Source: Chloroflexota bacterium (lineage in GTDB: Bacteria; Chloroflexota; Dehalococcoidia; Lucifugimonadales; UBA3495). From it: DNA of 39,176 bases. Below are positions 589-38,997 of the stretch, in pieces (position 1 is the first letter of the stretch; every line of letters begins with the position of its first letter). The stretch covers positions 1 through 39,176 of the forward strand of contig VXTR01000002.1 in the NCBI GenBank assembly GCA_009837355.1, read 5' to 3'. The notes under the pieces were generated by a model. It did no database searches. It saw nothing but the letters and a program-made list of their open reading frames with translations, and was not told where the DNA came from. Position numbers and translations under genes: made by a program.

Positions 589-792
589 TTAGCTGCCTTC
601 GTTCTGGCGGGAGCGCAGCCGTTGTCGGCGCTGCTCCCGGCGCAGTTCCCGGTCTTCCATGTACAGGCGGAGGGCCTCGCGCACCAACTCACTCATGTCG
701 CGTCCCTCTTCCTCCTTCACCCGCTGCACCTCCTGGTACATCTCCGGGGGCAGCGAAAAGGTGATGGTCCTGGAAATCCTGCGTGGGGGCAT
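589..792 (-). CDS. Ribbon-helix-helix (CopG/Arc-type) DNA-binding protein
   Basis: This is a 67-residue protein. The basic N-terminal strand RRISRTITFSLPPEM (residues 4-18) is followed by two helices (YQEVQRVKEEEG and SELVREALRLYMED), the classic ribbon-helix-helix layout; the strand residues enter the DNA major groove in a dimer. The C-terminus is strongly basic. Members of this family usually repress their own operon and are often the antitoxin of a toxin-antitoxin pair. Here the next gene in the same direction (1-570) is an unknown protein rather than a recognisable toxin, so an antitoxin role is only a possibility. A near-consensus promoter lies just upstream, and the 10-mer ATAGTAAGAC overlapping its -10 region is shared with the probable ribbon-helix-helix gene at the right end of the window. 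Confidence 0.88.
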   Translation of the reverse strand: MPPRRISRTITFSLPPEMYQEVQRVKEEEGRDMSELVREALRLYMEDRELRREQRRQRLRSRQNEGS

Positions 793-914: not shown

Positions 915-1370
915 CTAGGTGATCAGCCACCAGGCCACCAGGACGGTGAGCGCCAGCAAGACCACCAGCACGGCGACGGCGATGCCTAGCCGGGCAACCC
1001 AGCGCCTGGCTCTTTGGTGGCCGTTCTGTTCCCGCACCAACACTTCTTCCAGCTTGCGGTACTCGTCTAAGGCGGTGTCCGTCTCCGCCCGGGCCCGGTC
1101 TCGCTCCTGCTCCAACCGGTCCGCCTCCTCGGCCAGTTCCCCCACCGTCCGCTCCAGTCGTTCCACTCTGGCCCTGGACTGGCGCAGCAGCTCCCGGTCG
1201 CTGGGGTAACGGGGTCCGGGCAGCTTCACGTACACCCGCCGGCCTTCTCTTCCTACCTCCACCTCGCCCTTGCGGATCATCCGGTCCAGGGTCGATAGCG
1301 ATACCTCCAACTCCCGCGCCGCCTCCCCCTTGTCCACCCAGTGGACGTCGTCTTTGACCTTATCTGACAT
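915..1370 (-). CDS. HTH / coiled-coil / C-terminal membrane-anchored protein
   Basis: A protein of 151 residues from the ATG at 1370, which has GAGGTG well placed upstream; a GTG three codons earlier is a weaker alternative. Residues about 8-45 form an excisionase/MerR-like winged helix (VDKGEAARELEVSLSTLDRM, then a GRRVYVK wing). Residues about 58-120 are a heptad-rich, charged coiled coil. The last 25 residues are one hydrophobic segment (ARLGIAVAVLVVLLALTVLV), which predicts a tail anchor in the membrane. A DNA-binding domain tethered to the membrane through a coiled coil would suit tethering of element DNA or membrane-coupled regulation. That role is inference. Two TTGCA-type palindromes lie upstream at 1406-1469. 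No partner gene is obvious. Confidence 0.85.
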   Translation of the reverse strand: MSDKVKDDVHWVDKGEAARELEVSLSTLDRMIRKGEVEVGREGRRVYVKLPGPRYPSDRELLRQSRARVERLERTVGELAEEADRLEQERDRARAETDTALDEYRKLEEVLVREQNGHQRARRWVARLGIAVAVLVVLLALTVLVAWWLIT

Positions 1371-1616
1371 GTAAATCACCTCGTAAACGGCGATGCGTCA
1401 GGCGATTGCACTCTTGCCAAAATCACCCTCGTTGTTTTAGCGCCGTTTCTCACACTTGCAAGAATGCAATTATTGATTGGTCAAGGGGCATTGCAGCCCG
1501 TTTCGTACCTGAAACCAGGGGACAATGATACGTCGCGGCCTCCCGGCCAACCTCTGAAATCACCCCCGGAGGACAGTTTGCGCCCCCGGACAACAGAGCG
1601 GGTAGAAGATACCGTA
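1371..1616. other. Intergenic stretch between convergently ordered minus-strand genes
   Basis: Apart from the palindromes at 1406-1469 I see no gene here. Two similar G-rich strings (TCCGGGGGCG and TCCGGGGGTG on the minus strand, near 1560-1590) follow the stop of the large winged-helix gene. No clear hairpin terminator with a T-tract is visible. Confidence 0.4.
1406..1469. promoter_or_regulatory. Two TTGCA-N4-TGCAA palindromes (putative operator)
   Basis: A perfect inverted repeat TTGCA-agaa-TGCAA is at 1456-1469, and an imperfect copy TTGCA-ctct-TGCCA is at 1406-1419. Both lie within 100 bp upstream of the membrane-anchored HTH gene that starts at 1370. The same architecture occurs before the paralogous HTH/coiled-coil genes at 5672 and 38727, so it is a good candidate for a shared operator. 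Confidence 0.5.
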
Positions 1617-3329
1617 TCAGCATGTTTGCTGTGTCTCCCGCTGATGCATTCGGCGGCGCAGTTTGTCCCACTCGTATGCCCCCAACTCGCACAGCGCCAG
1701 CGGCGCACGTTCCGGTTCCCACAGGGGACGCCAGGACCGGCCCAGCAGCCCCCTATAGGACAGAAGCTCCCTACTGGACACCAGGATGGGCAGCGTCATC
1801 GCCGGCATCCGGGACGCGGTGCTGGCGTAGGTCTCCGCCACCTCCTCGGTGTCCACCACGAACAGCGTGGTCGGGAAGGGCGGCTGGTCATCCCGGGGCG
1901 CGTCGGAGCGGTAGTAGCGGATGTAGGGTCGCAGACGGGCGGCCACTCCCCTGGGGTGGCGGGCGCGCAGCTCGTGCTCGAGGTAGAAGGGCACGTGCAG
2001 GGCGTTGACCAGCAGGTGTCCCACGGCGTCGGGCGCGATGGCGTCCTCGCCCCGGTTGAAGGCCCGGTCGGAGCGGGCGGTGGGTATGGACCATTGCAGC
2101 TCGCTGGCGTCTTCAGTCCTCGCTTCGGCGGCAAGCTCCGACAGGAACCAGGTGATGCCGTCGGCGTGGCCGGTCTGGCGCTGCCAGGTGAGGATGCGGT
2201 GTCCCAGGGGGCGGGGCTGTCCGTGATTGTCGGCGGCTTCCTCCGTGCTCCATGCGGCCATGGTGGTGGATAGCTGGGCCCGGTCCCGGCGGGTGATGTA
2301 CCCGATGCCCCGGTCGGACAGGGTGTAGCGCACGTCGCTCCGCCTACCGTGCTGTTCCACCAGGCCCCAGGTCTGCGTCAGGCTGCGGGTCATCTGGCTG
2401 ACCCTTCCGTCGGAGACGCCCAGCCAGCGGGCCAGGTGCTCCCGGGGTATCATGGGATGGTCGGTGATCAGGTCCAGGGCGCGTTTTGCCGCAGGGCTTA
2501 TGCCGAAGGCCGGGGCAGCGTTGACCATCCGTTCCGGGTCGGGCAGGGACGCCCGCTTGCGCTCCGGCGCCTCCGGGTGAAACCGTCCGCCGGGTTCGGC
2601 CTGGGAGACCACCTGCTCCAGGGTGCGGTACATCCTGCCAATCACCCAGTTGGATGAAATCCAGGTCAGGCGGTCCCACTCTTCCAGGGTCTCCCGGCGC
2701 TCGACGCCCACGAAATAATCCCGGAGATCCGCGTTGAGGCAGAACTCGTCGGTGAGCCGCTGCTCCCAGGGGCTGGGAACCAGCACCAGCACCACGGAGG
2801 GACGGCGGGCGTAGTGGTACTCGGCGATGGCCCGCAGCCGGTCGTAGAGGGAGCGGCGCCGCAGCGCCAGTCCCTGGCGCACCACGCCGAAACTGCGGCC
2901 ATTGTGAAGGGTGATCACCGCGTCGAAACGGCCCCGGCGCTGGAACTCCACCTGGGTTTCCAGGCCGTCCACGCCCGGGGACAGCGTTGCCGCCAGGCGG
3001 TATACGGAAGCAACCGCGTCCATCCGGCGTATGAGCAATGCCAGCCACTGCCGGGACGCGGGATAGGTCCGCACGAAGTCCGATGGCGCGTCGTAGCCGA
3101 GGACATCGGCGGCCTCGGCGACGCCGTTCTTCGTGAGGTAGTAGCGGTGGCTGGAGGGCAGGTGGGCCGTGCCGTGGCTCACCCGCTGCGCCAGGCCGTC
3201 TCTCAGCAGTGCGGACAGGGCGCGGTGCACCGTCGCCAGCGGTTCGCCCAGGACCAGGGCCAGTTCCCCCGCGTCGATGAATGACAGCCGGGCCAAGGCG
3301 TCCAGGATGCGCTCTCGTGAGAAGGCCAT
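1617..3329 (-). CDS. Double winged-helix protein, replication-relaxation-like
   Basis: The frame is open further upstream, but the protein-like sequence begins at the ATG at 3327-3329 (MAFSRERIL), preceded by GGAGG; the reading before it is a shadow of a broken HTH gene. The resulting protein has 570 residues. An N-terminal winged helix (about 2-80) has a recognition helix followed by SSHRYYLTKNG. A central alpha/beta part follows (GRSFGVVRQGLALRR, SVVLVLVPSPWE). A second winged helix lies near residues 275-350 (IPREHLARWLGVSDGRVSQM, then RYTLSDRGI). The layout recalls the replication-relaxation family of plasmids and integrative elements, which is thought to act on element DNA during transfer or replication. 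The match is by pattern only. It points to a mobile-element context for the left flank. Confidence 0.75.
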   Translation of the reverse strand: MAFSRERILDALARLSFIDAGELALVLGEPLATVHRALSALLRDGLAQRVSHGTAHLPSSHRYYLTKNGVAEAADVLGYDAPSDFVRTYPASRQWLALLIRRMDAVASVYRLAATLSPGVDGLETQVEFQRRGRFDAVITLHNGRSFGVVRQGLALRRRSLYDRLRAIAEYHYARRPSVVLVLVPSPWEQRLTDEFCLNADLRDYFVGVERRETLEEWDRLTWISSNWVIGRMYRTLEQVVSQAEPGGRFHPEAPERKRASLPDPERMVNAAPAFGISPAAKRALDLITDHPMIPREHLARWLGVSDGRVSQMTRSLTQTWGLVEQHGRRSDVRYTLSDRGIGYITRRDRAQLSTTMAAWSTEEAADNHGQPRPLGHRILTWQRQTGHADGITWFLSELAAEARTEDASELQWSIPTARSDRAFNRGEDAIAPDAVGHLLVNALHVPFYLEHELRARHPRGVAARLRPYIRYYRSDAPRDDQPPFPTTLFVVDTEEVAETYASTASRMPAMTLPILVSSRELLSYRGLLGRSWRPLWEPERAPLALCELGAYEWDKLRRRMHQRETQQTC

Positions 3330-3391
3330 GCCTCCAGCGTAACAGCCGGAAGTCGTCGCCGTCAGTGGGCAACTGTCAGTACCGACTCGGC

Positions 3392-5519: not shown

Positions 5520-5521
5520 GA

Positions 5522-5656
5522 TTGCAGAATACAATCCCAGGTCATTTCCCACGGGGATCGGGGTCTATTTGGCGGCAGCGAGGAGATTTCCGGCCAGTGA
5601 ATTTACTGCGCCTCTATAATCACGATATTGCAGGGATTGCAGTGCGAAGATTGCAG
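5522..5656 (+). promoter_or_regulatory. Promoter with TATAAT and TTGCAG operator repeats
   Basis: A perfect -10 box TATAAT is at 5615-5620, 50 bases before the start codon, without a good -35 box at the usual distance. TTGCAG occurs three times just downstream (5628, 5637, 5651), across the expected start site, and an imperfect palindrome TTGCA-GAAT-ACAA lies upstream at 5522-5534. This resembles the operators at 1456 and 38745 and fits repression by a factor common to this gene family. Confidence 0.5.
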
Positions 5657-5671: not shown

Positions 5672-5869
5672 ATGACCGTGAAAGACCACGATGATCCCGC
5701 CCTGGAGTGGGACCTAGAACCCGAAGTTGAGCCACAGGCTCCCCTATCGGACGACGCCCTATTGGACCTGCTGGACGCCCTGGTGGAGGAACGGGGCCGG
5801 GTGCCCGCCGCGCAGGTGCTGGGGGTGAACTTCCGCCCCCTGGTCCTCTGCTGCGATACCGGGAGGTAA
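5672..5869 (+). CDS. N-terminal half of a frameshifted HTH/coiled-coil protein
   Basis: This 65-residue frame holds an acidic leader and an HTH (ALLDLLDALVEERGRVPAAQ, then VLGVNFRPLVLCCDTGR) and ends at TAA. It aligns well with the start of the intact gene at 37876-38727 (LLALLRDVVADHGKVKAAET, then LGVSFRTLSRADDTGR). In that gene the next residues are LTPRLADALESH. Their counterpart here, VTRRMRRALAEF, continues in the -1 frame and opens the next entry. A single-base change near 5860-5866 therefore splits one gene. The break lies in a GGGAGG run that itself looks like a ribosome-binding site. This could be a true frameshift mutation, a programmed shift or a sequencing error. Confidence 0.55.
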   Translation: MTVKDHDDPALEWDLEPEVEPQAPLSDDALLDLLDALVEERGRVPAAQVLGVNFRPLVLCCDTGR

Positions 5870-5877
5870 CCCGGCGA

Positions 5878-6570
5878 ATGCGGCGGGCGCTGGCAGAGTT
5901 CCGGGAACAAGGCGGTGACGGCCGTGGTGAAACGGAGCTTACCGATGGCGACGGTCCACCGGACGGCGAAGTGGCGGCCCTGTGTCAGTGGGTGGCTGAA
6001 CTGGAGGAGGAAAACGCCGCCCTGCGGGAGTTGACGGATGACCAGGCGCGACAGTTGGAGCTACTTACCCGCAGGCTTGCCGCGCTGGAAGACAGCCGCC
6101 AGTCGGGAGATGCTGCCGAAGTTGTCGGCGTTGACGCTGACGCCGATGATGCGCATGGCCATGACCGGACCGACGGCGTGGATCAGGATTGGAGACCGCC
6201 CCGGCGCCGACCCGGAATGGCCGATGCCGGGGTGGTTACCCTGGAGGAGCAGCCCGACGAGGAGTTCGCCTTCGGCCTGGCGGCGCCTTTGGTTGCCGAA
6301 TGGCGCAGGTTGCGGACAGACGGCAGGCAAGGCGCCAGCCGCGTTGACCGGGCGCAGGCCGCCGTGCGCCGGTGGGAGCTGGAGGCCGCAATGATTGGCG
6401 AGTACCGCCTGACATTGCCGCCGGATACCTACCCCTTGGATGACGCGCACCGTGCCGATCACGTCCGCTGGCGGCGGGATGCCCTGGCGGAAGCCCAGGG
6501 GGACCTGCGACGAGCGAAGCTCGCCAGGTTGCTGCGGCGGGTCATTACGCTGGGCCTGTGGCGAGACTAG
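5878..6570 (+). CDS. C-terminal half of the frameshifted HTH/coiled-coil protein
   Basis: A 230-residue frame begins at an ATG 11 bases after the GGGAGG run. It carries a coiled coil at about 35-75 (ELEEENAALRELTDDQARQL, then LLTRRLAALED), a low-complexity acidic linker, and a conserved C-terminal domain (GEYRLTLPPDTYPLDDAHR, ending LLRRVITLGLWRD). The end matches that of the paralogue at 37876-38727 (EQHELTLPPARR, ending LRRFLTFGIWRK), so the two genes are homologous over their whole length. On its own this half lacks the HTH but keeps the oligomerisation and C-terminal parts. It might be made by reinitiation after the upstream TAA. The family is unknown to me; the role is probably DNA binding by analogy with the paralogue. 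Confidence 0.7.
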   Translation: MRRALAEFREQGGDGRGETELTDGDGPPDGEVAALCQWVAELEEENAALRELTDDQARQLELLTRRLAALEDSRQSGDAAEVVGVDADADDAHGHDRTDGVDQDWRPPRRRPGMADAGVVTLEEQPDEEFAFGLAAPLVAEWRRLRTDGRQGASRVDRAQAAVRRWELEAAMIGEYRLTLPPDTYPLDDAHRADHVRWRRDALAEAQGDLRRAKLARLLRRVITLGLWRD

Positions 6571-6667: not shown

Positions 6668-6723
6668 GTGAGGTAAATGGCAACCTCTGAATTTTCCGGT
6701 GTTGCCGTGTGGGTGTCGAAAAC

Positions 6724-8844
6724 ATGAACCACAGTGAGATTGTCAACTTCATTTGGGGAGTGGCGAACCTGATTCGGGACACCTTCAAGAGGGGGAAGTA
6801 CCAGGACGTTATCCTGCCGCTCACCGTGCTCCGACGGCTGGACTGCGTGCTCGGTCCCACCAAAGAGGATGTGCTCCAGCGTCAGGCCGAGCTCCGTGGC
6901 AGGGGGTTGGAGGATTTGCATAGCCAACTCTGCCTGGCTTCCGGGTTCGCCTTCTACAATACTTCCCGGTACGACTTCTCCCTGCTGCTGGCCGACGCCC
7001 CTAACGTTGCCGCCAATTTGAGGAACTACATCGCAGGTTTCAGCCAGAACATGCGGGAGGTACTGGAAAGGTTCGACTTCGACAACACCATCAGCAAGCT
7101 TGACGAGGCGGGCCTACTCTTCCAGGTACTGGAGAGATTCGGGAATGTGGACCTTCATCCCGACCACATTGACAACGCTACGATGGGCACAATTTTCGAG
7201 GAGCTGATCCGCCGGTTCAACGAGGCGCTGAACGAGAATCCAGGTGAGCACTTCACTCCCCGGGATGTGGTACACCTCATGGTTGGCCTCATGCTCGCCG
7301 GCGATGAAGACAGAATCGGCGGCAGCGGTGTGGTGCGGACCGTCTATGATCCCTGCTGCGGCTCCGGTGGAATGCTGACCATCGCCAAGGAGCGCATCAA
7401 CGTCGGCCACCTGGATAGCGGCAATCTACTGACTGGTCCGGTGAATCAAGATGCCGAGATTCACCTCTTCGGGCAGGAAGTGAATCCAGAGACTTGGGCG
7501 GTTTCCAAATCGGACCTGTATATGAAAGACCCAACAGGCAGGGACGCCGACAGCATCGTTTTCGGAACCACTCTTTCCAACGACCGGCACGCGGCCAGAA
7601 CCTTCGACTATCTGATTGCCAATCCGCCTTATGGGAAGGATTGGAAGCGGGACGAAAGCTCGGTTCGCGCTGAACATAGTCGGGGCGCAGCCGGCAGATT
7701 TGGGCCGGGCCTCCCGCGCATCAGCGATGGTCAGCTTCTGTTCCTGCTGCATATGCTGGCGAAAGCCAAAGACCCGGAGGAAGGCGGTTCGCGCATCGCC
7801 ATCATTATGAACGGGTCGCCTTTGTTTACCGGGGACGCGGCCAGCGGCGAGAGTGAGATACGGCGCTACGTCTTCGAGAACGACCTGCTTGAAGCCCTGA
7901 TCGCCCTACCCGAGCAACTCTTCTACAACACCGGCATTGCCACCTATGTTTGGCTCCTCACAAACCGGAAAACCCCGGAACGCAAGGGCAAGGTGCAGCT
8001 CATCGACGCTTCCGAATTCTGGACTCCGATGCCTCGAAGCCTGGGCGACAAGCGTCGGCAGGTTCCTCCAGAAAAAGTCCGGGACATTCTGCAAATCCTT
8101 GACGCCTGCCGGGACGGGGAAATCCGCCGCGTTGCCAAAGACAGTGGGAGAGAAGATACCGTTGTGAGCCGCATCTTCCCCACAGTCCACTTCGGATTCC
8201 GAAAGATTACAGTGGAACGCCCGCTACGGCTCAACTTCCAGGCAACTCCCGAGCGCATCGCGCGGCTCGAAAACGAAAGGGGGTTCCAAGCACTGGCCAA
8301 GTCCAGGAAGCAGGGATATGCGGCGAATCAGGAAGAGGACCGGGGACGCCGGCTACAGGAGTCGCTCCGAAAGATGCTGAATGCCTTGCCTGAGACTGTG
8401 GTAAAGGACCGGAAGGACTTTGAAGAAATCCTTGACGACGCATTGAAGCGCGCTGAGATAAAGCTATCTGCTCCCGTTCGCAAAGCGGTCCTCAACGCTT
8501 TGGCGGAGCGTGACGAAACAGCAGCCATTTGCACCGACAAGGAGGGCAAACCGGAGCCGGACCCGGAACTGCGGGATACTGAACGTGTGCCCTTGGCCTT
8601 GGATGTGAACACCTTCTTCGAGCGAGAAGTCAAACCCCACGTGCCGGATGCCTGGATTGATGATTCCAAGAGAGACGCCAGGGACGGAGAGGTTGGGATA
8701 GTCGGGTACGAAATCAATTTCAACCGCTACTTCTACCGGTATTCCCCGCCCCGTCCACTGGAGGACATAGAGGCGGACATACAGGGTATTGAAACGGACA
8801 TCGTTCGAATGCTGGGGGAGATTACGGCGTCAGTATCCGCTTGA
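6724..8844 (+). CDS. hsdM: Type I restriction-modification methyltransferase subunit HsdM
   Basis: This is the modification subunit of a type I system, which transfers methyl from S-adenosylmethionine to adenine N6 in the site recognised by HsdS. The protein has 706 residues from the ATG at 6724; a GTG five codons earlier is possible. An N-terminal helical domain starts NHSEIVNFIWGVANLIRD. The SAM-binding motif DPCCGSGG is at about 209-216 and the catalytic NPPY at 300-303. A long charged C-terminal extension makes it larger than the common ~500-residue HsdM, as in the larger subfamily. A perfect terminator follows, so it seems to be transcribed separately from hsdS and hsdR further on in the same direction. 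Four accessory genes separate it from hsdS. Confidence 0.96.
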   Translation: MNHSEIVNFIWGVANLIRDTFKRGKYQDVILPLTVLRRLDCVLGPTKEDVLQRQAELRGRGLEDLHSQLCLASGFAFYNTSRYDFSLLLADAPNVAANLRNYIAGFSQNMREVLERFDFDNTISKLDEAGLLFQVLERFGNVDLHPDHIDNATMGTIFEELIRRFNEALNENPGEHFTPRDVVHLMVGLMLAGDEDRIGGSGVVRTVYDPCCGSGGMLTIAKERINVGHLDSGNLLTGPVNQDAEIHLFGQEVNPETWAVSKSDLYMKDPTGRDADSIVFGTTLSNDRHAARTFDYLIANPPYGKDWKRDESSVRAEHSRGAAGRFGPGLPRISDGQLLFLLHMLAKAKDPEEGGSRIAIIMNGSPLFTGDAASGESEIRRYVFENDLLEALIALPEQLFYNTGIATYVWLLTNRKTPERKGKVQLIDASEFWTPMPRSLGDKRRQVPPEKVRDILQILDACRDGEIRRVAKDSGREDTVVSRIFPTVHFGFRKITVERPLRLNFQATPERIARLENERGFQALAKSRKQGYAANQEEDRGRRLQESLRKMLNALPETVVKDRKDFEEILDDALKRAEIKLSAPVRKAVLNALAERDETAAICTDKEGKPEPDPELRDTERVPLALDVNTFFEREVKPHVPDAWIDDSKRDARDGEVGIVGYEINFNRYFYRYSPPRPLEDIEADIQGIETDIVRMLGEITASVSA

Positions 8845-8873
8845 TGGATTGGCCGTTCGCTGATTATTAAAAC

Positions 8874-8908
8874 AGGTCGGCAAACTTGAATGCTTTGCCG
8901 ACCTTTTT
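8874..8908 (+). terminator. Intrinsic terminator after hsdM
   Basis: Stem AGGTCGGCAAA (8874-8884) pairs perfectly with TTTGCCGACCT (8894-8904) around a nine-base loop and runs into five Ts. It ends the hsdM transcript 30 bp after its stop. Confidence 0.9.
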
Positions 8909-8934
8909 ACAAACTCATTGCGTTCTTGTAAAAT
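8906..8934 (+). promoter_or_regulatory. Near-consensus promoter for the AbiE-TIR-hsdS unit
   Basis: TTTACA (8906-8911) and TAAAAT (8929-8934) are 17 bp apart, each five of six to consensus. It begins inside the T-tract of the hsdM terminator and lies 42 bases before abiEi. It should drive abiEi, abiEii, the membrane/TIR pair and probably hsdS onwards. Confidence 0.65.
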
Positions 8935-8975
8935 GGCTATGAGGCAATCCCGATCACCGACAGGATTGACACGCA

Positions 8976-9578
8976 ATGGCCGTCGAACTTACCCAGGACA
9001 TCCTTCACGAAGCCGGCATCGGCAATTTCTTCCGGCCCAGCCAACTGGAGCCGCTGGGGATACCCTACCACCGGCTCAGGCAACTTGAGGCGGATGAAAC
9101 CGTCGAGCGAATAGGCTGGGGCCTCTATCGCTTGGCGGAAGCTGAACCCACGGAACGTTACTCGATTGCCTCCGTGTGCGCCCGGGTCCCCAACGCCATA
9201 GTCTGCCTGGTATCGGCGCTCCAGGTGCATGAGATTGGCACCCACATGCCCCGCCAAGTCTGGATTGCCATTCCGCACAAGGCAAAAGCCCCCGTGCTCA
9301 AGGGAATAGGAGTCCGCTTGGTTCGCTTCAGCGCCGCCGCCTTGACCTATGGCGTACAGGAAACCAGCTTTGAGGATGTGCCAGCTCGCATTACATCTCC
9401 GGCTCGCACGATAGTTGACTGTTTCCGGTTCCAACGCCTGGTCGGGCGAGAAGCAGCGGTGGAGGCGCTTCGTGAGGCTATTGATGGCAGAAAGGTCACG
9501 ACCGCCGGGCTAATGCGTACTCTTGAGGTTCTGCCCTCGCGCCGTCTCAGTGCCATTATGGAAGCCGGGGTGCTATGA
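8976..9578 (+). CDS. abiEi: AbiEi-type antitoxin (transcriptional repressor)
   Basis: The 200-residue protein begins with a winged-helix domain (RPSQLEPLGIPYHRLRQLEA, then GWGLYRLAE), followed by the AbiEi C-terminal domain (SIASVCARVPNAIVCLVSAL, then RTIVDCFRFQRLVGREAAVE). In the type IV AbiE system this protein represses the operon and counteracts the nucleotidyltransferase toxin without stable binding to it. Its stop overlaps the next start as ATGA, the usual arrangement for this pair. Its own promoter lies immediately upstream, so autorepression there would also set the level of the downstream TIR and hsdS genes; that consequence is inference. Confidence 0.92.
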   Translation: MAVELTQDILHEAGIGNFFRPSQLEPLGIPYHRLRQLEADETVERIGWGLYRLAEAEPTERYSIASVCARVPNAIVCLVSALQVHEIGTHMPRQVWIAIPHKAKAPVLKGIGVRLVRFSAAALTYGVQETSFEDVPARITSPARTIVDCFRFQRLVGREAAVEALREAIDGRKVTTAGLMRTLEVLPSRRLSAIMEAGVL

Positions 9579-10519
9579 CAACCAACATCGCCGCTTCGAT
9601 CAGAGCACGGTTGCTCAACAGGGCCAGAACCGAAGGGACAGAGTTCCAGCTCTTTCTGGACCGTTACGCTTGCGAGCGGTTCCTCTACCGTCTGGGGGAG
9701 TCGGAGGTCCGGGACCGGTGCATCCTGAAGGGTGCGAGCCTGCTGGCGTTATGGATGGACGAACCCTATCGGTCAACGCGGGACATTGACCTGTTGACTT
9801 TAGGAGACAACGACGAGGAAACCGTTCGCTACGTAATGGGGACCATCTGCAACGTTTCCTGCCCTGAAGACGGAATGGCTCTCGACGTCGGCACCTTGAA
9901 GATTTCAGCGATTCGGGATGGCCAGCGGTATGGCGGGCAGCGCGCTACCATCATTGCTTTTCTGGGGAACGCCAAGTGCAACGTACAGGTGGACTTTGGC
10001 TTTGGCGATGTGGTGATACCCGGACCGGAAGAAGCCCAGTTGCCTGTCCTTATAGGTGGCCTTCCGGCGCCTTTTCTGCTCACCTACCCCCAGGCATCTT
10101 CCATTGCTGAGAAGTTCGAGGCAATGGTCCAGTTGGGTGCAAGCAACAGCCGGATGAAGGACTTCTACGACCTATGGGCTTTGTCCGAAACCTTCGGCTT
10201 TGACGGTCCCGAGTTGCAGGAGGCGGTTGCGCGGTGCTTTGACCGGCGCGGCACACCCTGGGGAGCTGAGTTACCTGAAGCGCTTACGCCCGCGTTTTAC
10301 TCAAACCCGCAACGGCAGAATTACTGGACGACATATGGACTTCAGGGCGGGCTGCTGCGTCTCCCACCCAGCGCATTCGAGGACATCGGTAGCCGTATCC
10401 AGTCCTTCCTGGGGCCTGTTCGGGACAGTATCCTGGCGGGCGAGCCGTTTGACCTGCACTGGCCTGCGGGCGGGCCTTGGGCAGCCGACTATCCGTTGGG
10501 GGTGCCAGGTGAAGAATAA
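9575..10519 (+). CDS. abiEii: AbiEii-type nucleotidyltransferase toxin
   Basis: The protein has 314 residues. The nucleotidyltransferase core reads KGASLLALW (52-60) and then RSTRDIDLL (66-73), with metal-binding Asp70 and Asp72. The second family signature, AEKFEAMVQLGASNSRMKDF followed by YDLW, is in the middle. Characterised AbiEii-family toxins transfer nucleotides, for example to tRNA acceptor ends, and stop growth when the antitoxin falls, which aborts phage infection. All key residues seem intact. It overlaps abiEi by four bases and the next gene by about 11, which indicates translational coupling in one unit. Confidence 0.94.
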   Translation: MTTNIAASIRARLLNRARTEGTEFQLFLDRYACERFLYRLGESEVRDRCILKGASLLALWMDEPYRSTRDIDLLTLGDNDEETVRYVMGTICNVSCPEDGMALDVGTLKISAIRDGQRYGGQRATIIAFLGNAKCNVQVDFGFGDVVIPGPEEAQLPVLIGGLPAPFLLTYPQASSIAEKFEAMVQLGASNSRMKDFYDLWALSETFGFDGPELQEAVARCFDRRGTPWGAELPEALTPAFYSNPQRQNYWTTYGLQGGLLRLPPSAFEDIGSRIQSFLGPVRDSILAGEPFDLHWPAGGPWAADYPLGVPGEE

Positions 10520-10982
10520 TCCGCGCCTCAACGAAGAGTCCTCCGCAGTTCAGACCCACCTGACCATCATGCAGGGCGTGATAAACCGGATGGCGGAGAA
10601 CAGCCGTTCCTGCAAGGTGTGGTGCGTTACCCTCGTGGCCGCTACCCTGGTGCTGGTGGCCCGGACCGCGGAGCCGCAGCACGCCCTGATAGCACTGGTT
10701 CCAACCCTGCTGTTCCTGTTCTTGGACTCCTACTACCTGGCGCTGGAACGGGCGTTCATCAGATCCCAAAACGCCTTCGTCGGAAGGCTGCACCAGAGCG
10801 AACTGGAGTCCGCCGACCTTTACAGGGTAGTCCCGTCAGGCATGGGATTGCCTTTGATTATGCGGTGTCTGCTGGGTTCGGTGTCGATATGGCCGTTCTA
10901 CCTACTGGTAACCGTAACGATACTGCTAACTTGGCTGCTCATTATTCCCTCTGACACGCCACTGACAAAAGGAGGCCTGTGA
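10509..10982 (+). CDS. Three-helix membrane protein paired with the TIR-like gene
   Basis: The likely start is the GTG at 10509-10511, inside the end of abiEii, preceded by a GGGGG run. It gives 157 residues. A soluble N-terminal helix (about 1-34) is followed by three hydrophobic segments (CVTLVAATLVLVA; ALIALVPTLLFLFLDSYYLA; PFYLLVTVTILLTWLLII). A short loop with QSELESADLYRV separates the second and third. The TIR-like gene starts two bases after its stop, so the two act together in all likelihood. Membrane protein plus TIR-like protein is a pattern of defence systems in which one part senses or signals and the other kills, by depleting NAD or breaching the membrane. Which partner does which is not visible here. 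Confidence 0.8.
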   Translation: MKNNPRLNEESSAVQTHLTIMQGVINRMAENSRSCKVWCVTLVAATLVLVARTAEPQHALIALVPTLLFLFLDSYYLALERAFIRSQNAFVGRLHQSELESADLYRVVPSGMGLPLIMRCLLGSVSIWPFYLLVTVTILLTWLLIIPSDTPLTKGGL

Positions 10983-10984
10983 CG

Positions 10985-11560
10985 ATGTCCGATGTCCCCA
11001 GGCACAAGGTATTCATCAGCTACTACCACGCGGACGACCAAGAATACAAAGACCGGCTCGTTCAGGCGTTGGACAGCAAGTTCGTTGACAAGTCCGTCAG
11101 CCAGGGAGATATTCACGATGAAGGTCTCCCTCTGGATGAAATACGCCGGAGAATCCGCGATGACCACATCGCGGACGCCACCGTCACCATTGTCCTGATT
11201 GGCCGCTGTACCTGGCAGCGCAAACACGTGGATTGGGAGGTTTCGGCCAGTCTAATTGACCGACGGAACAACCCTAGATGCGGCCTTCTTGGTTTGCTAT
11301 TGCCCACACACCCGGACTATCGCAAGCGGTCTAGCGACCGCAATCCTCGCCTGATCCCGCCTCGGCTGGCGAGAAACATCGATGGCGACAACCCCTTTGC
11401 CGTCATTTACGACTGGCCCAGGAATGGACTGTCCAGGAAAATCCTCCCGAAAATCCACACGGCGTTTCAGCGAAGAAACAGAACCCCCTGGCCGGATGAC
11501 GGTCTTCACCTTTTCCGAGACAACCGATCCGGCGATTGTCGCCGGGGTTGGCAGAACTAG
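10985..11560 (+). CDS. TIR-like (DUF1863/ThsB-type) protein
   Basis: The start is the ATG at 10985, nine bases after GGAGG. The 191-residue protein opens with the TIR-like signature HKVFISYYHADDQEYKDRL (about 6-24). A strand/loop follows (DATVTIVLIGRCTWQRKHVD, then WEVSASLI), as in DUF1863 or MTH538-type domains. ThsB of the Thoeris system belongs to this fold and makes a cyclic ADP-ribose signal from NAD. No ThsA gene is present here. The partner is the three-helix membrane protein just upstream, so a signal acting on that protein, or NAD breakdown near the membrane, are both possible. It lies 16 bp before hsdS. Confidence 0.88.
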   Translation: MSDVPRHKVFISYYHADDQEYKDRLVQALDSKFVDKSVSQGDIHDEGLPLDEIRRRIRDDHIADATVTIVLIGRCTWQRKHVDWEVSASLIDRRNNPRCGLLGLLLPTHPDYRKRSSDRNPRLIPPRLARNIDGDNPFAVIYDWPRNGLSRKILPKIHTAFQRRNRTPWPDDGLHLFRDNRSGDCRRGWQN

Positions 11561-11576
11561 GCAAGAGCAAGTTGAC

Positions 11577-12947
11577 ATGGCGACGTTGAACGCAAAATAC
11601 CAGCCCTACCCAGCCTACAAGTCCTCCGGCATTGAGTGGCTTGGGGATATTCCGGCGCATTGGGAAGTGCGTCGCCTCAAGACGTTGGCAACCGTACAAC
11701 TCAGCAATGTGGATAAGAAATCGGAGGAAGGCCAAGCCGTTGTTGGCCTGTGCAACTACGTGGACGTATATTACAACGAGCGAATCAGATCTGATGTCGA
11801 TTTTATGGTCGCCACTGCAAGCGAAGACCAGATTCGTCGCTTCTCCCTTCATAAGGGTGATGTCCTCGTTACGAAGGACTCAGAGTCTTGGACTGACATC
11901 GCTGTCTCGGCAGTGGTTTCAGAAAACTTCCCAGATGTCCTTTGTGGCTACCATCTTGCCCACATTAGGCCCGGTGGCCACTGCGATGGGGCCTTTCTTA
12001 GCCGAGCGTTCTCTGCCACTGGCCCGGGGAACCAGTACGAGACTGCCGCGAACGGAATAACCCGTTTCGGCCTGACTGGAGATGCTATCCGAGAGGGAGT
12101 GTTCCCTGTCCCACCCCTCAAGGAACAGCGCGCCATCGCTGATTTCCTGGACCGGGAGACGGCCCGGATTGATGCGCTGGTTGCCAAGAAGGAACGGCTG
12201 ATTGAACTGCTCCAGGAAAAGCGCACGGCCCTCATCACCCGCGCCGTCACCAGGGGCCTCGACCCTGATGTGCCGATGAAGGACTCCGGCGTCGAGTGGC
12301 TGGGGGAGATTCCGGCACACTGGGAAGTTAAGCGGTTGAAGCACTTGGTTGGGAAGGTTGGAAGCGGAAAGACTCCGAAAGGCGGCGCGGAGCGATACGT
12401 CGATGATGGAGTGATGCTGCTTCGCAGTCAGAACGTGCACTTCGGCGGGTTGCGGCTTACCGACGTCGCGTACATTGACGGTGATACTGATGATGAGATG
12501 GCCGGTAGCCGCGTATTGGAAGGTGACGTACTACTGAACATTACAGGGGCATCGCTAGGCCGAAGCTGCGTTGCTAAACTCAGCGGCAAAGATGCCAATG
12601 TGAACCAACACGTCTGCATTATCCGCCCTAATCAGCAGCAGGATGAACCGAAATTCTTGGCCTACTCAATAGAGTCTCGGCCGTTGCAGGATCAGATATT
12701 CAACAACGAGAACGGTGTCTCCCGTGATGCGCTGAATTTCGAGCAAATTGGAGATCTTGTGTTCGCTAGGCCCTCGAAAAATGAACAACAAGCTATTGCC
12801 GCTTCCCTGGAGCGGGAAACAGCGAAGCTTGATTCCCTCGTCGCCAAAATCCGGGAAGCCATCGAGCGTTTGAGAGAGCTACGGAGCGCCCTCATTTCTG
12901 CCGCTGTCACCGGTCGGATTGACGTTAGAGAGGAGGCAGAAGCGTGA
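11577..12947 (+). CDS. hsdS: Type I restriction-modification specificity subunit HsdS
   Basis: The ATG at 11577 follows the TIR gene by 16 bp and gives 456 residues. The protein is an internal duplication, as usual for HsdS. Each half has a target-recognition domain that begins with near-identical strings (SGIEWLGDIPAHWEVRRLK and SGVEWLGEIPAHWEVKRLK), followed by a conserved helix (EQRAIADFLDRETARIDALV and EQQAIAASLERETAKLDSLV). The two recognition domains differ in sequence, so the site is bipartite and asymmetric. HsdS positions HsdM and HsdR on the DNA. Its end overlaps the HEPN-like gene by four bases (GTGA), which indicates coupling. Confidence 0.95.
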   Translation: MATLNAKYQPYPAYKSSGIEWLGDIPAHWEVRRLKTLATVQLSNVDKKSEEGQAVVGLCNYVDVYYNERIRSDVDFMVATASEDQIRRFSLHKGDVLVTKDSESWTDIAVSAVVSENFPDVLCGYHLAHIRPGGHCDGAFLSRAFSATGPGNQYETAANGITRFGLTGDAIREGVFPVPPLKEQRAIADFLDRETARIDALVAKKERLIELLQEKRTALITRAVTRGLDPDVPMKDSGVEWLGEIPAHWEVKRLKHLVGKVGSGKTPKGGAERYVDDGVMLLRSQNVHFGGLRLTDVAYIDGDTDDEMAGSRVLEGDVLLNITGASLGRSCVAKLSGKDANVNQHVCIIRPNQQQDEPKFLAYSIESRPLQDQIFNNENGVSRDALNFEQIGDLVFARPSKNEQQAIAASLERETAKLDSLVAKIREAIERLRELRSALISAAVTGRIDVREEAEA

Positions 12948-13834
12948 AAGAATGTATCGTAAACGTCTTTACCTACGGTGATGGGGAATGCATTCACTCT
13001 TTTGGATGGGCAACCTACACAGTGGAGGGTTCGTACCGAGAGCTTACGGCTTTTCTGCAATCCAAGGTAGAAGCCGACTCCAAAATCGCGAAACTAATGG
13101 ACTTCCCGGAACCAGTGAAGAGGTCAGATTTTGACTTCGCGTTGCGACTGGGCGCTCTGGACCGCGTTGCGCCTCAAGTTGTGGAGATAGTCGGCGACTC
13201 AATCTACTGCCTTACGCACGTAATTGACGGCAAGCCAAGAGCTGAAGGTGTTTCCCATGCTCAACCTCACGAGGCTGTGCCTGACTACCTCAGACTCTAT
13301 TGGACGACCTCCGGGTTCGATTTTGGTCAGTTAATTGACGACGACTTCATGGATGCAATCATGGTCCTGTGGACAAACCAGAAGTATGTCTCCGCTCTCA
13401 AGCTGCTTTTCATCATGATTGATACACTGGGATTCGTTGAATTTGGCTCCGTAAACGATTGCTTTGTTCGATGGCTCAACAGATTCTGTGACTTGGATTC
13501 ATTAGGCGTCTCATCGAACGAGCTTTGGGAGCTTAGAAATTCCTTGCTTCATATGACCAACCTTGATTCTCGCAAAGTCCATAGCGGCAAAGTCAAGAGA
13601 TTATTGCCTGTGACGACTGCTCAGCAGAACGATATTCCAATTGACATGGATGGTTTCAAAAATCTGCACATGACACGGCTGTTTGGATCCGTGATTCCAG
13701 CAGGGATCGTCAAGTGGGTAAGCACCTTCGACGGAAACCAGGGCAAGTTTCTTGATTTCTTGCAAAAGTACGACACGGTTATTTCCGATTCTCGAACCAG
13801 CGTAGCACACAGACCGGGAGCATCTGAAGGCTAA
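12944..13834 (+). CDS. HEPN-like unknown protein between hsdS and hsdR
   Basis: It starts at GTG overlapping the hsdS stop, with GAGGAGG upstream inside hsdS, and has 296 residues. The C-terminal half is helical and contains LWELRNSLLHM, where Arg198 and His203 form an R-X4-H motif typical of HEPN ribonuclease domains. The N-terminal half is mixed (VNVFTYGDGECIHSFGWATY). Genes of this kind placed between restriction genes are often safety or abortive modules. RloC and PrrC cut tRNA when restriction is blocked, but they carry ATPase domains that this protein lacks. An RNase role is therefore a hypothesis from one motif and position. It precedes hsdR by 75 bp in the same direction. Confidence 0.75.
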   Translation: MKECIVNVFTYGDGECIHSFGWATYTVEGSYRELTAFLQSKVEADSKIAKLMDFPEPVKRSDFDFALRLGALDRVAPQVVEIVGDSIYCLTHVIDGKPRAEGVSHAQPHEAVPDYLRLYWTTSGFDFGQLIDDDFMDAIMVLWTNQKYVSALKLLFIMIDTLGFVEFGSVNDCFVRWLNRFCDLDSLGVSSNELWELRNSLLHMTNLDSRKVHSGKVKRLLPVTTAQQNDIPIDMDGFKNLHMTRLFGSVIPAGIVKWVSTFDGNQGKFLDFLQKYDTVISDSRTSVAHRPGASEG

Positions 13835-13909
13835 ACCATAAATCAAACGGATTGCCAATTTGGTCACGCTGAATATGTCGCGGCTGCATACTATCGAGAA
13901 GGAGGCACG

Positions 13910-16900
13910 ATGCAAGTAGAAGTTTCGGAAAAGGCCTTTGAAAACGCAATCGAAGCCTGTCTTGTCCATAGCGATGAAAGGTTGATTGGGGATGAACGGG
14001 TCCCCTATTTGGACCCAACGCCCGGCGGTTATCGGAAGCGGACATCCGACGACTATGACCGCGCTTTGTGTCTAATCCCGGAGGACGTGCTGGACTTTGT
14101 GCTGGTGACGCAGCCCCAGGAGTGGCGGCGGCTTTCCCAGCATCACGGCTCCGCCGTGAGGGAACAGTTCCTCAAGCGCCTGGCCTCCGAGATAGCCCGC
14201 CGGGGCGCTCTGGACGTGCTGCGCCACGGTATCCGGGACATGGGCTGCCGGTTTCGGCTGGCCTACTTCCGACCGTCCAGCGGCCTGAACGAAGAAACCC
14301 GGCGGCTCCACCGGGGCAATGTCTTCTCGGTGGTGCGGCAGCTCCACTACAGCGAGGGCAACAACCAGAGCTTGGACCTGGCCCTTTTCCTCAACGGCAT
14401 CCCAATCTTCACGGCGGAGCTCAAGAATCCTCTCACGGGGCAAACGGTGGAAGACGCCATCCGCCAGTACCGGACGGACCGGGACCCGCGTGAGCCGCTG
14501 CTCTCCTACCGGCGTTGCTTGGCCCACTTCGCCGTTGACCCCGATCTGGTCTATGTCACTACCCAACTGGCCGGGCCGCAGACCCGGTTCCTGCCCTTCA
14601 ACCGAGGCAAGTTTGGCGGCGCCGGCAACCCGCCCGTTCCGCCAACGCAGCACGGCTACGCCACCGCCTACCTCTGGGAAGAGACCTGGACGCGGGACAG
14701 CGTGCTGGACTTGGTGCGCCAGTTCATCCACGAGGTTGAGGAGGAGGACGACCGGGGCCGGAAGACGGGCAAGCGATACCTGATTTTCCCCCGCTACCAG
14801 CAACTGGACTGTGTACGACGGTTGGTGAGCGACGCCCGGCAGCGCGGAACGGGGCAACGCTACCTGGTGCAGCACTCGGCGGGAAGCGGCAAGACCTTCA
14901 CCATCGCCTGGCTGGCCCATCAACTGTCCACTCTTCACGATGCGGAGGACCGCCGGGTATTCGACTCCATCGTGATCATTTCCGACCGCCGGGTGCTGGA
15001 CCGCCAGCTCCAAGCGGCCATGCGACAGTTCGAGCAGACTCTGGGCGTCGTGGAGAACGTGGACACTACCTCCAGGCAGCTCAAGGAGGCATTGGAGTCC
15101 GGCAAGACCATTATAGTCACCACGCTCCAGAAGTTCCCAGTCATTGCCCAGGAAATCGGCGAGTTGCCAGGCCAACGATACGCCCTGATAGTAGATGAGG
15201 CCCATTCCTCGCAGTCCGGCGAGGGAACCCAGGGGCCGAGAGACGTGCTTGCCGTGCCGTCCCTGGAAGTGGCCGAAAGGGAGGATGCCGACGTCCCCGC
15301 GCCGGAGGACGAAGACTTGGACAACGCGGCGTTGGCGCAAATGGCGAGGCGGCAGCAACCGGCCAACGTTTCCACCTTTGCCTTCACCGCCACCCCGAAA
15401 TCGAAGACGCTGGAGCTTTTCGGCGCCCGACGGCCCGACGGCTCTTTCGCGCCCTTCCACCTTTACAGTATGCGCCAGGCCATCGAGGAAGGGTTCATCC
15501 TGGACGTATTGGAAAGTTACACCACTTTCAAGGCTTATTGGCGATTGCTCAAGACCATTGAGGACGACCCGCGCTACGACAAGTCCAAAGCCTCTTACCT
15601 GCTCCGGTCCTTCGTGGACCTGCACCCGCATGCCATAGACCAAAAGGTCCGAATCATGGTCGAGCACTTCACCGGCAAGTCCCAGAGCGAAATAGGCGGC
15701 CGGGCAAAGGCGATGATTGTGACGCGCTCGCGCCTGCACGCCGTCCGCTACAAGCTGGCTGTTGATCGGCGCCTGACCGAGCTTGGCAACCCGTTCAAGT
15801 CGCTGGTGGCCTTCTCCGGTACAGTGCATGACAGCGGCCAGTCCTATACGGAAGCCGGCATGAACAGCATACCGGAGGCCCAGACCGCTAAGACGTTTGA
15901 ATCTCCTGAATACCGGATACTGATTGTCGCCAACAAGTTCCAGACCGGGTTTGACCAGCCTCTGCTGCAAACCATGTACGTGGACAAGAAGCTGGGCGGT
16001 GTCAACGCGGTGCAGACCCTCTCCCGGCTGAACCGGACACACTCCGACAAGCCCGGCGCCATGGTCATCGACTTCGCCAACGAGTCTGACGACATCCAGG
16101 CCGCCTTCCAACCATATTATGAAACGACAATCTTGTCGGAGGCGACCGACCCCAACCTGCTGTATGAGGTTCAGACGAGGCTGAAGACTTACCCGGTCTT
16201 CACCGATGAGGATGTGGATGCCTTTGCCGGAGTGTTCTTCGGCGCCGGTTCAACTCAGGCTCAGCTTTATGCCGCGCTGGCTCCGTCCGTCCAACGCTTT
16301 TCCGAGCTTCAGGAAGATGAGCGGCAGGATTTCCGGGGTCAGGTAACGGACTATGTGCGTCTGTATTCCTTCTTGGCCCAGGTGATTACCTTCCTTGACG
16401 CTGACCTTGAGAGGCTCTACGTGTTCGCTCGGCACCTCCGACGGTTGCTCAGGGTTGACCGCGAAGAATTGCCGCTTGAAATCCAGCAGAACATCGACAT
16501 GGAGTCTTACCGAGTCCAGCAGACTGCCAGCGGGAAAGTTGCGCTGGAACGGAAGGGAGACAAACTAGACCCGGTACGGACCAAGGAACCAGGACAAAGA
16601 ACACCGGAAGAGTTGGAAGCCCTCTCACGCATCATTGCTGATCTCAACGAGCGTTTCGGTATCGAGTTGGGTCCCGAACACCGCATAACCCTGGGCAGAA
16701 TGATGGAACGCTTGGAGGAGGACGCTGCCTTGGAGACCGCCACGAAGGTCAACACGCTGGAGAACGTTCGGATTACCTTTGACCACAAGGTGGAGCAGGT
16801 CATCCAGGAAATCATCGACCTGAATTTCGACCTTTACAAGCGGATAACCGACGACCCTGCATTCGGGGAGGTAGTGAAGAACCACTTGTTCGACCAGTAT

Positions 16901-29684: not shown

Positions 29685-29717
29685 ATCGTTGGCTCGACTG
29701 ACCAAAGTTCCTCTAGA

Positions 29718-35673: not shown

Positions 35674-36690
35674 CTAAAGGCCTTGCGACGCCGGTTTCAG
35701 TAGGGCGTAGGAGCCAGGCTCCCGCACCAAGTGGTTGACGAACACCCGGCCGTGGCCGTCGTAGCCGGTGGTGTAGGCGTACTCTACCTGGGCGCCCCAA
35801 GGCACCCGACCGCCGACGCGCATGGTGCCGTCCCCGACCTTGCCACCGCTGCCCGGCCCGCCGGCCCCGCGTATCACCATGCCCTGGCGCTCACCCTTCT
35901 TCCAGGCCAGCACCTTCACCTCCGCCGGCATCACCCGTTCCGCCGGCGACGGCGCGAACAGCACCCCGTGCAGCCGCGTCAGCACGTCCCCCGACGGGGT
36001 GCGCCGGCCGGACATGATGCCGGAGAGGAAACCCTTGCTGATGCCGGCCCGCCGGGCCACCTCGTTCTGGCTGATGCCGTGGGCGTCCATGCGCTCCCAC
36101 AAAGCGTGGGGGTCCACGACGGAGCGCTTTGCGGGTTTCACTTTCATGGGACCGCCCAGGGCCGACTCCAGCCGGGCCTGGACCGCCGGGCTCATCCGGT
36201 TGCGGCCCCGGGACACGTCGGTCAGGTGCCTGGAGGATATCCCCACCCGCTGGGCCAGTTGGTTGATGCTCAGGCCCAGCTCCCGGGCTCGCTCTCTTAC
36301 GTAGGTGCTCTCGCTGCGGATGACGTCGATGCGGCGGTAGACGACGCCCTGGCCGGGCACGTATCCCAGCACGGCCCTGACCTTCTCCTGCATGGCCGGG
36401 GTCCAGGGCCGTCTTCCGGTGGAGAACTCGGAGAGGTAGCGGTTGGAGATGCCCATCCGCTGGGCCAGTTGCTTCATGGTGAGGCCGCTCTTGCGGGCGG
36501 CGGCGCGGAGTTCGGTCTCAGGCTTGCCGTTCGCGGTAGCGGGTTGGTTGTTACCGGTAAGGGTTGCGTTGGCGCTGTCATTGCCGTTGCCGTTGGCGGG
36601 TTGGGCCGACGCGCTGGTTGTAGCGTTGGCGACGTCGGTAGTGTTGCCGGCGGTGGGTTGGATCGTTGGGTTGGTGGTAGCGGTGGACAT
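35674..36690 (-). CDS. Protein with three XRE helix-turn-helix domains
   Basis: A protein of 338 residues, with GGAGG eight bases before the ATG. A low-complexity Thr/Asn/Ala-rich N-terminal leader (about 1-55) precedes three XRE domains in tandem: one near 58-105 (MKQLAQRMGISNRYLSEFST), one near 135-180 (INQLAQRVGISSRHLTDVSR), and one near 200-245 (QNEVARRAGISKGFLSGIMS). The C-terminal 90 residues are beta-rich and Gly-rich (GAQVEYAYTTGYDGHGRVFV). Three HTHs in one chain would recognise a long, repeated site. The role is probably regulation of the element; no family name is known to me. A hairpin-rich leader lies upstream. Confidence 0.88.
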   Translation of the reverse strand: MSTATTNPTIQPTAGNTTDVANATTSASAQPANGNGNDSANATLTGNNQPATANGKPETELRAAARKSGLTMKQLAQRMGISNRYLSEFSTGRRPWTPAMQEKVRAVLGYVPGQGVVYRRIDVIRSESTYVRERARELGLSINQLAQRVGISSRHLTDVSRGRNRMSPAVQARLESALGGPMKVKPAKRSVVDPHALWERMDAHGISQNEVARRAGISKGFLSGIMSGRRTPSGDVLTRLHGVLFAPSPAERVMPAEVKVLAWKKGERQGMVIRGAGGPGSGGKVGDGTMRVGGRVPWGAQVEYAYTTGYDGHGRVFVNHLVREPGSYALLKPASQGL

Positions 36691-37875: not shown

Positions 37876-38727
37876 CTACTTCCGCCAGATGCCAAAGGTG
37901 AGAAAACGCCGCAGCTTGAGCATCTTGCGGTCGACCGTCACGTCGTACAGCATCTCGTTCCGCCGATTGACCTCCTGGCGCCGGTCGCCCCAGTCCCAGG
38001 ACCGCCTCGCCGGGGGCAGGGTGAGCTCGTGCTGCTCGATCAGCTCGACCTCCAGCTCCAGGCGCCGCTCCCGGGCGTTGAGGATGTCCATGGCGTCGGT
38101 AGCGGCAGCGAAGGCGTCCCGGGCCTGGCGCCATTTCACGATCACCGCCGTGGCGGCGTCGCCGTATACCAGCTCCTCGCCGGGCTCCGCCTCGTCCGTA
38201 ACCAGGTCGGGATAAACCCGCCGGGGCCGCTGGACCACGGGATTTGCCGCTGCGCCCGGCTGGGCCGATGGCGAATTCGCCGAGCCTGCCGCCGGTGTTC
38301 CGGCCTGTCCGCCTCCCGCTGCGCTTGAAACCACACCCGATGCTCCCGCCGCTTCCAGCGTCGCCAGTCGCCTTTCCGCCCGCTCCCACGCCTGCGCCTG
38401 CTCCTCCCTGAATTCCTCCAACCCATCCACCAGCGCCGCCTCCAACCGCGCCACCCGGTCCGCCAGCTCGCACAAACGCTTGCGCTGCTGCGCCGCCGCT
38501 GTCCCAACGCCCTGGACCAGGTGGCTTTCCAGCGCGTCGGCTAAGCGCGGGGTCAACCGGCCCGTGTCATCGGCCCGGGACAGGGTGCGGAAGCTGACGC
38601 CCAGGGTCTCCGCCGCCTTCACCTTGCCGTGATCGGCCACCACGTCCCGCAGCAGCGCTAGGAGCCGCACCTCCCGCAGGCTCTCGACGCTCCGGCTGCT
38701 GGAGGAATACTGTTCCGCTCCGTCCAT
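37876..38727 (-). CDS. HTH / coiled-coil protein, intact paralogue of the 5672-6570 gene
   Basis: The frame is open further upstream, but the ATG at 38727 has GGAGG eight bases before it and starts the conserved part (283 residues). An HTH lies near 20-65 (LLALLRDVVADHGKVKAAET, then LGVSFRTLSRADDTGR). A coiled coil follows (about 80-125), then an Ala/Gly/Pro linker (130-160). The C-terminal helical domain contains ERRLELEVELIEQHELTLPP and ends LRRFLTFGIWRK. The whole layout matches the frameshifted gene near the left end. Family unknown to me. The upstream TTGCA palindromes and the HTH suggest that it represses itself and its relatives. Confidence 0.85.
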   Translation of the reverse strand: MDGAEQYSSSSRSVESLREVRLLALLRDVVADHGKVKAAETLGVSFRTLSRADDTGRLTPRLADALESHLVQGVGTAAAQQRKRLCELADRVARLEAALVDGLEEFREEQAQAWERAERRLATLEAAGASGVVSSAAGGGQAGTPAAGSANSPSAQPGAAANPVVQRPRRVYPDLVTDEAEPGEELVYGDAATAVIVKWRQARDAFAAATDAMDILNARERRLELEVELIEQHELTLPPARRSWDWGDRRQEVNRRNEMLYDVTVDRKMLKLRRFLTFGIWRK

Positions 38728-38744: not shown

Positions 38745-38814
38745 TTGCACTTCTGCAACTCGGCAACGGGGCGATGTCAACCGACACCCGATTTTCCCGA
38801 TTGCCTTTCTGCAA
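38745..38814. promoter_or_regulatory. Operator/promoter of the HTH/coiled-coil gene
   Basis: TTGCA-CTTC-TGCAA (38745-38758, perfect arms) and TTGCC-TTTC-TGCAA (38801-38814, one mismatch) lie 56 bp apart upstream of 38727. A perfect minus-strand TTGACA at 38775-38780 lies between them, so a bound dimer or a loop could block the promoter. No good -10 box is seen 17 bp on. Confidence 0.5.
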
Positions 38815-38997
38815 TTGCCACGCACGGGACTGTCCGGCGGCGCTGGAAGCTGCCCTGGAACCAAAGTGTTCGCCGAAACCGTCCGATAGGGGGTGATTGC
38901 CCCTGATTCTAGGTTCAACCGGACGGCGATTGACTTTTTGCAACCGGCTCCAAATCCCTGTACACGGGTATGACACCACACCCGCCCCCGCAAAACC

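Follow-up and report, generated by a model that had tools for sequence, protein, structure and literature searches.

SmpO of staphylococcal conjugative plasmids is an RHH protein and a relaxosome accessory factor that was shown to bind oriT. Its sites, ossA and ossB in the pWBG749-family oriTs, are private, co-diverge with the protein and are switched by a single residue (PMC8136818). KfrA of the IncP and IncU plasmids is an HTH/coiled-coil autoregulator (PMC7783346, PMC8124265). The window compared with these systems is the whole contig C52, 39,176 nucleotides of a 3.25-Mb, 89-contig genome, and the regulator under consideration is P0001, a member of an orphan family. Phage repressors, Cro and CII offer a third comparison, as their immunity-specific operators insulate related elements from each other.

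Like the putatively DNA-binding proteins of the P0001 family, SmpO is a small DNA-binding protein of conjugative elements whose sites co-diverge with it. The sites are paired at near-fixed spacing, specificity appears to be set by few residues, and copies of the sites are found on non-conjugative DNA. However, SmpO is an RHH protein, whereas the P0001 family combines an HTH with a coiled coil and has three sites reaching the start codon. With KfrA, the family shares the N-terminal HTH, the alpha-helical coiled-coil tail, the conjugative replicons and the repeated sites in its own promoter. The layout differs in that KfrA of RA3 has five 9-bp repeats around the -10, whereas the palindromes of the P0001 family are spaced at 56 and ~129 bp, with a type IV secretion system (T4SS) operon on the other side. 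The likeness to phage repressors, Cro and CII lies in the element-specific operators and a weak fold resemblance of the HTH, but the best Foldseek E-value is 0.28 and the setting of P0001 is conjugative.

A structural model of P0001 (3 sequences, mean pLDDT 63) showed, with fair confidence, a helical domain at the N terminus that contains an HTH, the recognition helix spanning residues 46-55. A coiled coil follows at 77-130, then a disordered linker and finally two helices at the C terminus; model quality was low outside residues 11-130. An N-terminal HTH with a coiled-coil tail is the arrangement of a KfrA-type protein. At the thresholds used, P0001 had no match in Pfam (0 families at E<=0.01), PHROGs, NCBIfam or PADLOC. 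The Pfam result applies to the RHH domain, to the XRE/Cro/CI-type HTH_3 and HTH_31 domains and to the KfrA profile (KfrA_N). When the model was compared with the PDB by Foldseek, no structure was found at E<=0.001, the best rows being lambda CII, Cro and XRE folds, and a search of the PDB by sequence yielded a single weak match, to a coiled coil (E 0.011).

The sequence and domain tests place P0001 in neither the SmpO nor the KfrA group. Searches of a partial literature collection found nothing published on the P0001 family, and it is a previously unnamed and undescribed regulator family of Chloroflexota conjugative elements. P0001-type proteins are probably autoregulators of integrative-conjugative elements that are specific to their element, every one of them having its private operators. 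The inverted repeat TTGCA...TGCAA is one dialect of the changing control-site code of these regulators.

Copies of the TTGCA operator in the window and the genome

An earlier note on this DNA had proposed that a TTGCA-N4-TGCAA operator is shared by three HTH/coiled-coil genes, at 1370, 5672 and 38727, as one cross-regulating set. The four full copies that it listed, at 1406 (1 mismatch), 1456 (exact), 38745 (exact) and 38801 (1 mismatch), were all recovered, and they are promoter-region sites of HTH/coiled-coil genes, as had been claimed. With at most one mismatch, TTGCANNNNTGCAA has five copies in the window against a shuffle mean of 1.16, and 0 of 100 shuffles reached five. The fifth copy, at 28903 (1 mismatch), lies inside gene 28341-29705 and is probably due to chance. 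The partial copy reported near 5522 was located one base earlier, and the TTGCAG repeats were present (Table 1). Beyond the list of the earlier note, a third copy was found for the 38727 gene, 216 bp upstream of its start. The spacing of the sites is 56 bp for the pair 38745/38801 and 50 bp for 1406/1456.

Exact copies of the motif are confined to these promoters. In the 3.25-Mb genome they occur at three places, C52:1456, C52:38745 and C58:35570, and all three lie upstream of the genes in question or of a paralogue, the one on C58 encoding a protein with 84% identity to the 38727 protein. A genome-wide abundance of the exact motif is therefore ruled out. The one-mismatch form, in contrast, is common and unenriched, with 52 places in the whole genome against 58 for the reversed control; the TTGCA motif is therefore special by its position and not by its abundance. 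The window holds five of the 52 places, where 0.63 would be expected (Poisson P 0.0005).

Of the three genes, two are related. P0001 and the 5672 gene belong to one family and are the two TTGCA-dialect copies of the window; the 5672 gene is frameshifted in this assembly, which corrects the earlier note. A single family for all three genes was ruled out, as P0002, the product of the 1370 gene, has HTH_17-like hits and is no relative. The HTH/coiled-coil genes of the window may cross-regulate each other, and the two flanks that carry them may belong to one element. Downstream of P0001, a non-coding stretch at 37550-37750 is conserved in C14, C32, C36, C58, L013 and L014. An Rfam search of the window, L013, L014, L016 and L017, which covered this stretch, found no family.

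Table 1. Positions of genes and sites in the window
Feature	Position	Strand	Remarks
CopG/RHH-like gene	589..792	-	Downstream of P0002; a serine recombinase follows the relative in L205, with none in the window
P0002, excisionase/HTH_17-like	915..1370	-	Coiled coil, C-terminal hydrophobic segment; probable further target
Proximal site, P0002 promoter region	1406..1419	.	TTGCACTCTTGCCA (1 mismatch)
Distal site, P0002 promoter region	1456..1469	.	TTGCAAGAATGCAA (exact)
Second conserved palindrome, P0002 promoter regions	1473..1484	.	TTGACC-type; perfect TTGACCGGTCAA in L135, L143
Replic_Relax/MarR-like protein	1617..3335	-	Upstream of P0002; 92% identity to P0002 neighbour in L205
Partial operator upstream of 5672 gene	5521..5535	.	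ATTGCAGAATACAAT; similar in C87 paralogue
Three TTGCAG direct repeats upstream of 5672 gene	5628..5656	+	At 5628, 5637, 5651; counterpart in L010
Second P0001-family member	5672..6570	+	Frameshift-split (5672-5869 + 5878-6570)
Protein with three XRE-type HTH domains	35674..36690	-	Downstream of P0001; relatives on C58, C32, C36, C49
P0001, orphan-family regulator	37876..38727	-	N-terminal HTH, coiled coil, disordered linker, two C-terminal helices
Proximal operator	38745..38758	.	TTGCACTTCTGCAA (exact); adjoins P0001 start
Middle operator	38801..38814	.	TTGCCTTTCTGCAA (1 mismatch); 56 bp from proximal
Distal operator	38930..38943	.	TTGCAAAAAGTCAA on gene strand (2 mismatches); directly behind GTGTACA box
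Conserved box upstream of P0001	38959..38974	-	GTCATACCCGTGTACA

The promoter of the P0002 gene

The HTH_17-like and excisionase-like matches of P0002 were below the cut-off. Among the 21 homologues with at least 50% identity and upstream DNA, some of them partial matches and most of them close relatives, 16 keep the TTGCA site with at most one mismatch, 12 of these exactly; below 50% identity, 0 of 6 do so. This conservation suggests that the 1370 gene, which carries the same dialect, is probably a further target and would be switched by a P0001-type protein. The chances that TTGCA-type family proteins do act on the P0002 promoter appear about even.

The possibility was considered that the TTGCA copies of the 1370 gene are a conserved core promoter maintained by common descent and unrelated to the P0001 family. 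This explanation is not the favored one but a serious contender. The lack of genome-wide enrichment of one-mismatch copies and the close relationship of most homologues are consistent with it, as is the position of TTGCAA, which precedes by 16 bp a TAAAAC that persists even after loss of the site; however, what the 16 homologues keep is an inverted repeat, and a second site with at most two mismatches, in some cases overlapping the first, is present in 15 of the 21. Furthermore, P0002 and the P0001 family were found in an identical set of 10 genomes (49 and 50 searched, respectively), a co-occurrence that argues only weakly for a link because both lie on mobile DNA. Linkage of the 1370-type gene to the TTGCA-type 5672 gene also recurs across contigs. 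On four besides that of the window (G010:C71, G043:C49, G064:C94 and G000:C87, the last with a remote relative of P0002) a P0002-type gene lies 5-8 kb (4-8 kb if the window is counted in) from a 5672-type gene and points away from it, as in the window, and the two types of gene therefore seem to form a module. The setting of the 38727 gene is separate from this module.

In L205, the genes that follow P0002 on its strand are a 382-aa frame, one for an RHH protein and one for a serine recombinase, an order of genes that suggests an excision/integration module. The second palindrome of the P0002 promoter regions is possibly for another regulator.

The P0001 family and its conjugative neighbourhood

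A search with alignment A1 found the P0001 family in 10 of the 50 genomes from the same taxonomic family, among which a single genome had as many as 15 matches, in 36 of 393 genomes of the class and, at a stricter E-value, in 27 of 250 genomes of the order. The class search scored the best 6 candidates per genome and the order search the best 10, and the copy numbers are thus lower bounds. The genome of the window has eight loci. The named relatives are two Chloroflexota MAGs, and no relative of P0001 was found in the viral_contigs, plasmids and phages collections. Upstream DNA was compared for 137 distinct members, 101 from an old set and 36 from a new one, after exclusion of identical proteins and of members that began beyond position 17 of the model in the old set or beyond position 40 in the new one. 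The 6 members with less than 230 nt upstream were omitted from the motif counts, which left 131 upstream regions. Tandem pairs of family genes are present in L105 (G346:C93) and L068 (G186:C153), and the G346 pair differs in both the HTH and the upstream sites. Four contig ends of the genome of the window (L017 1-52, L021 2-53, the C58 end and the C32 end) carry the same 46-52 bp sequence, as if a common repeat had broken the assembly there.

The upstream regions of the 137 members tend to share a layout in which a GTGTACA box is closely followed by one site, with another two sites elsewhere. Of 98 members, 67 have the box in the 400 bp upstream, where 1.5 were expected and the shuffle maximum was 5. 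The exact sequence GTCATN4GTGTACA has six copies in the genome of the window, five upstream of family members and the sixth inside an open reading frame (C83:29826), which was taken as chance; in this genome the box is nearly private to the P0001 family. In many members a palindrome lies ~15-28 bp past the box and reappears in two copies close to the start codon. When 82 members (70% non-redundancy) were analyzed, the commonest spacing of the repeated sites was 56 bp (14 members), followed by 57 bp (6), and shuffles gave no peak.

In the proposed mechanism, the N-terminal HTH of P0001, dimerised through the coiled coil, would read a 5-bp half-site in an inverted repeat. The three operators, one right behind the GTGTACA box and two, 56 bp apart, adjoining the start codon, would give the protein control of its own promoter. 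In complete elements, a P0001-type protein may also control the divergent T4SS (conjugation) operon, and the control of both its own gene and this operon would presumably be repression.

The suspicion in the earlier note that the regulators belong to a mobile element gained support for the P0001 family, which is tied to conjugative elements. The first T4SS gene lies divergently upstream in 49 of 137 members (44 of the 122 with at least 900 nt upstream). In C14, L201, L202, L203 and L206, a secreted-protein-like gene, a VirB6-like gene and a T4SS pilin gene are divergent from the family gene, and this side continues with PrgI-like, VirB4/TraC and coupling protein genes. On the other side, several of these loci have a CHC2/Toprim primase, Rad52, SSB and a DUF6094 methyltransferase. 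Serine recombinases lie near the family gene in such loci, and L200/L201 have a serine recombinase together with a coupling protein. The linkage to T4SS and integrase genes that would be expected of an ICE regulator is therefore present in the family; it is absent for the window copy, and no T4SS genes adjoin the family copies in the window and on C58.

Alternatively, the array could serve as an origin of transfer, with the protein bound at its element-specific sites as an accessory factor of the relaxosome and autoregulation secondary; SmpO and TraM are factors of this kind. Solo copies such as that of the window would then be oriT mimics that let the defence island be mobilised. This alternative is considered unlikely. 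In L201, L202, L203, L206 and C14 the array has the T4SS operon on one side and the DNA-processing genes on the other, and the coupling protein has a TraG-D_C match, but a protein scan that covered part of the genes revealed no oriT, relaxase or nic site, and two of the sites are right at the start codon, as operators would be. The SmpO sites are likewise paired, 65-67 bp apart, and co-diverge with the protein (PMC8136818); the domain, RHH in SmpO and HTH in P0001, is different. A near-perfect palindrome of ~40 bp beside the array in C14, L013 and L014 would suit an origin of transfer, but it is degraded in L004, L005 and L039. This palindrome (GGGGTGAC...GTCACCCC core) was seen between the GTGTACA box and the T4SS operon in L006, L013 and L014, and in the window, where it is degraded at ~39000-39045, one arm is left.

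Operator dialects and the recognition helix

The sequence of the site varies by member: TTGCA in C52 and C58, GGACA in C14, L014 and L039, TCGCG in L076, TTCCC in L028, L074 and L099, and GTTCC in L101 and L102. When six closely related upstream regions were aligned, the boxes were found to switch type at the same three positions while their surroundings are kept. L004, for example, has 31-40% identity to the GGACA group in the boxes and 71-73% in the flanks. Different members of the family would read different half-sites, these and others, because the recognition helix varies at its start in step with the operators, and as a consequence co-resident elements may interfere little with each other. 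Allowing one mismatch, the C14 operator occurs five times in its own genome: three times at its own regulator, once as the distal site of C58 and once inside an open reading frame (C38:45563), the last taken as chance.

To relate the protein to the site, HTH classes were defined on residues 45-48, the class rules being chosen after inspection of the old set. At 70% non-redundancy, the motif of the class was present in 15/21 class members versus 5/60 others for TTGCA, 3/5 versus 1/76 for TTCCC, 8/16 versus 7/65 for GGACA and 9/19 versus 7/62 for G/CTGCA; 54 of the 81 non-redundant members have no exact match to the four motifs. For the hold-out, the rule was written first and named L159-L165, L167 and regions to be fetched, while the scoring took all new members in L159-L199, including L168, which matched. 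The own-class motif was found in 7 of 19 classed members against 4 of 57 for the other-class motifs (P 0.004); 14 of 33 new upstream regions fell in no class, and the TTGCA class scored only 1 of 4. A strict four-residue code was also tried and does not hold. The class rule is loose, with the exceptions L104, L105, L159, L165, L178 and L192, among which L159 (DHRT) has TTGCA, and L165 and L104 (SYRT) have GGACA.

Columns of the protein alignment were also ranked, unsupervised, by their information on operator type (27 labelled of 81). Residue 47 came first (z 7.9), followed by 36, 45, 46, 148 and 51. Four of these six (47, 45, 46 and 51) lie at the start of the modelled recognition helix, a clustering that is as should be for a protein predicted to read the site directly. 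Shared ancestry alone, with an HTH that does not directly read the site, is an improbable explanation of the association: in a Mantel test site similarity also tracked the rest of the protein (partial r 0.36, on 46-bp distal windows that mix flanks with operators, the motif and column tests being run afterwards), but the sites switch while the rest of the upstream region is conserved, the association persists when members are made non-redundant at 50% protein identity (P 0.0008 to 0.01) and the columns that tell most about the site fall in the recognition helix rather than spread across the protein.

The array of C58 (L016; 35755-35768, 35570-35583) is mixed, with a C14-type distal site, GGACAGTTGTCC, and two proximal sites of its own TTGCA type. 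On the basis of this array, copies without secretion genes, such as those of the present defence island, might be satellites that respond to resident conjugative elements or make use of them, which we regard as rather doubtful. If true, the defence island could be switched or mobilised with the conjugative element of the cell. Independently of the satellite reading, the P0001 family offers, in the 131 upstream regions compared, a natural series of operator and recognition-helix variants. It can be used to test how an HTH protein and its operators shift specificity together and how cross-talk among several related mobile elements of a genome is avoided or put to use, and it gives a handle on the possible wiring of defence-island cargo to conjugation control.

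The defence cargo identified by PADLOC extends over 6709-35419 of the window. It comprises a type I restriction-modification system (6709-16960) with AbiE inside it (8976-10519), HmaC (18343-21663), HmaB (23557-26757), HmaA (29718-33344) and a CBASS-like phospholipase and cyclase pair (33470-35419).
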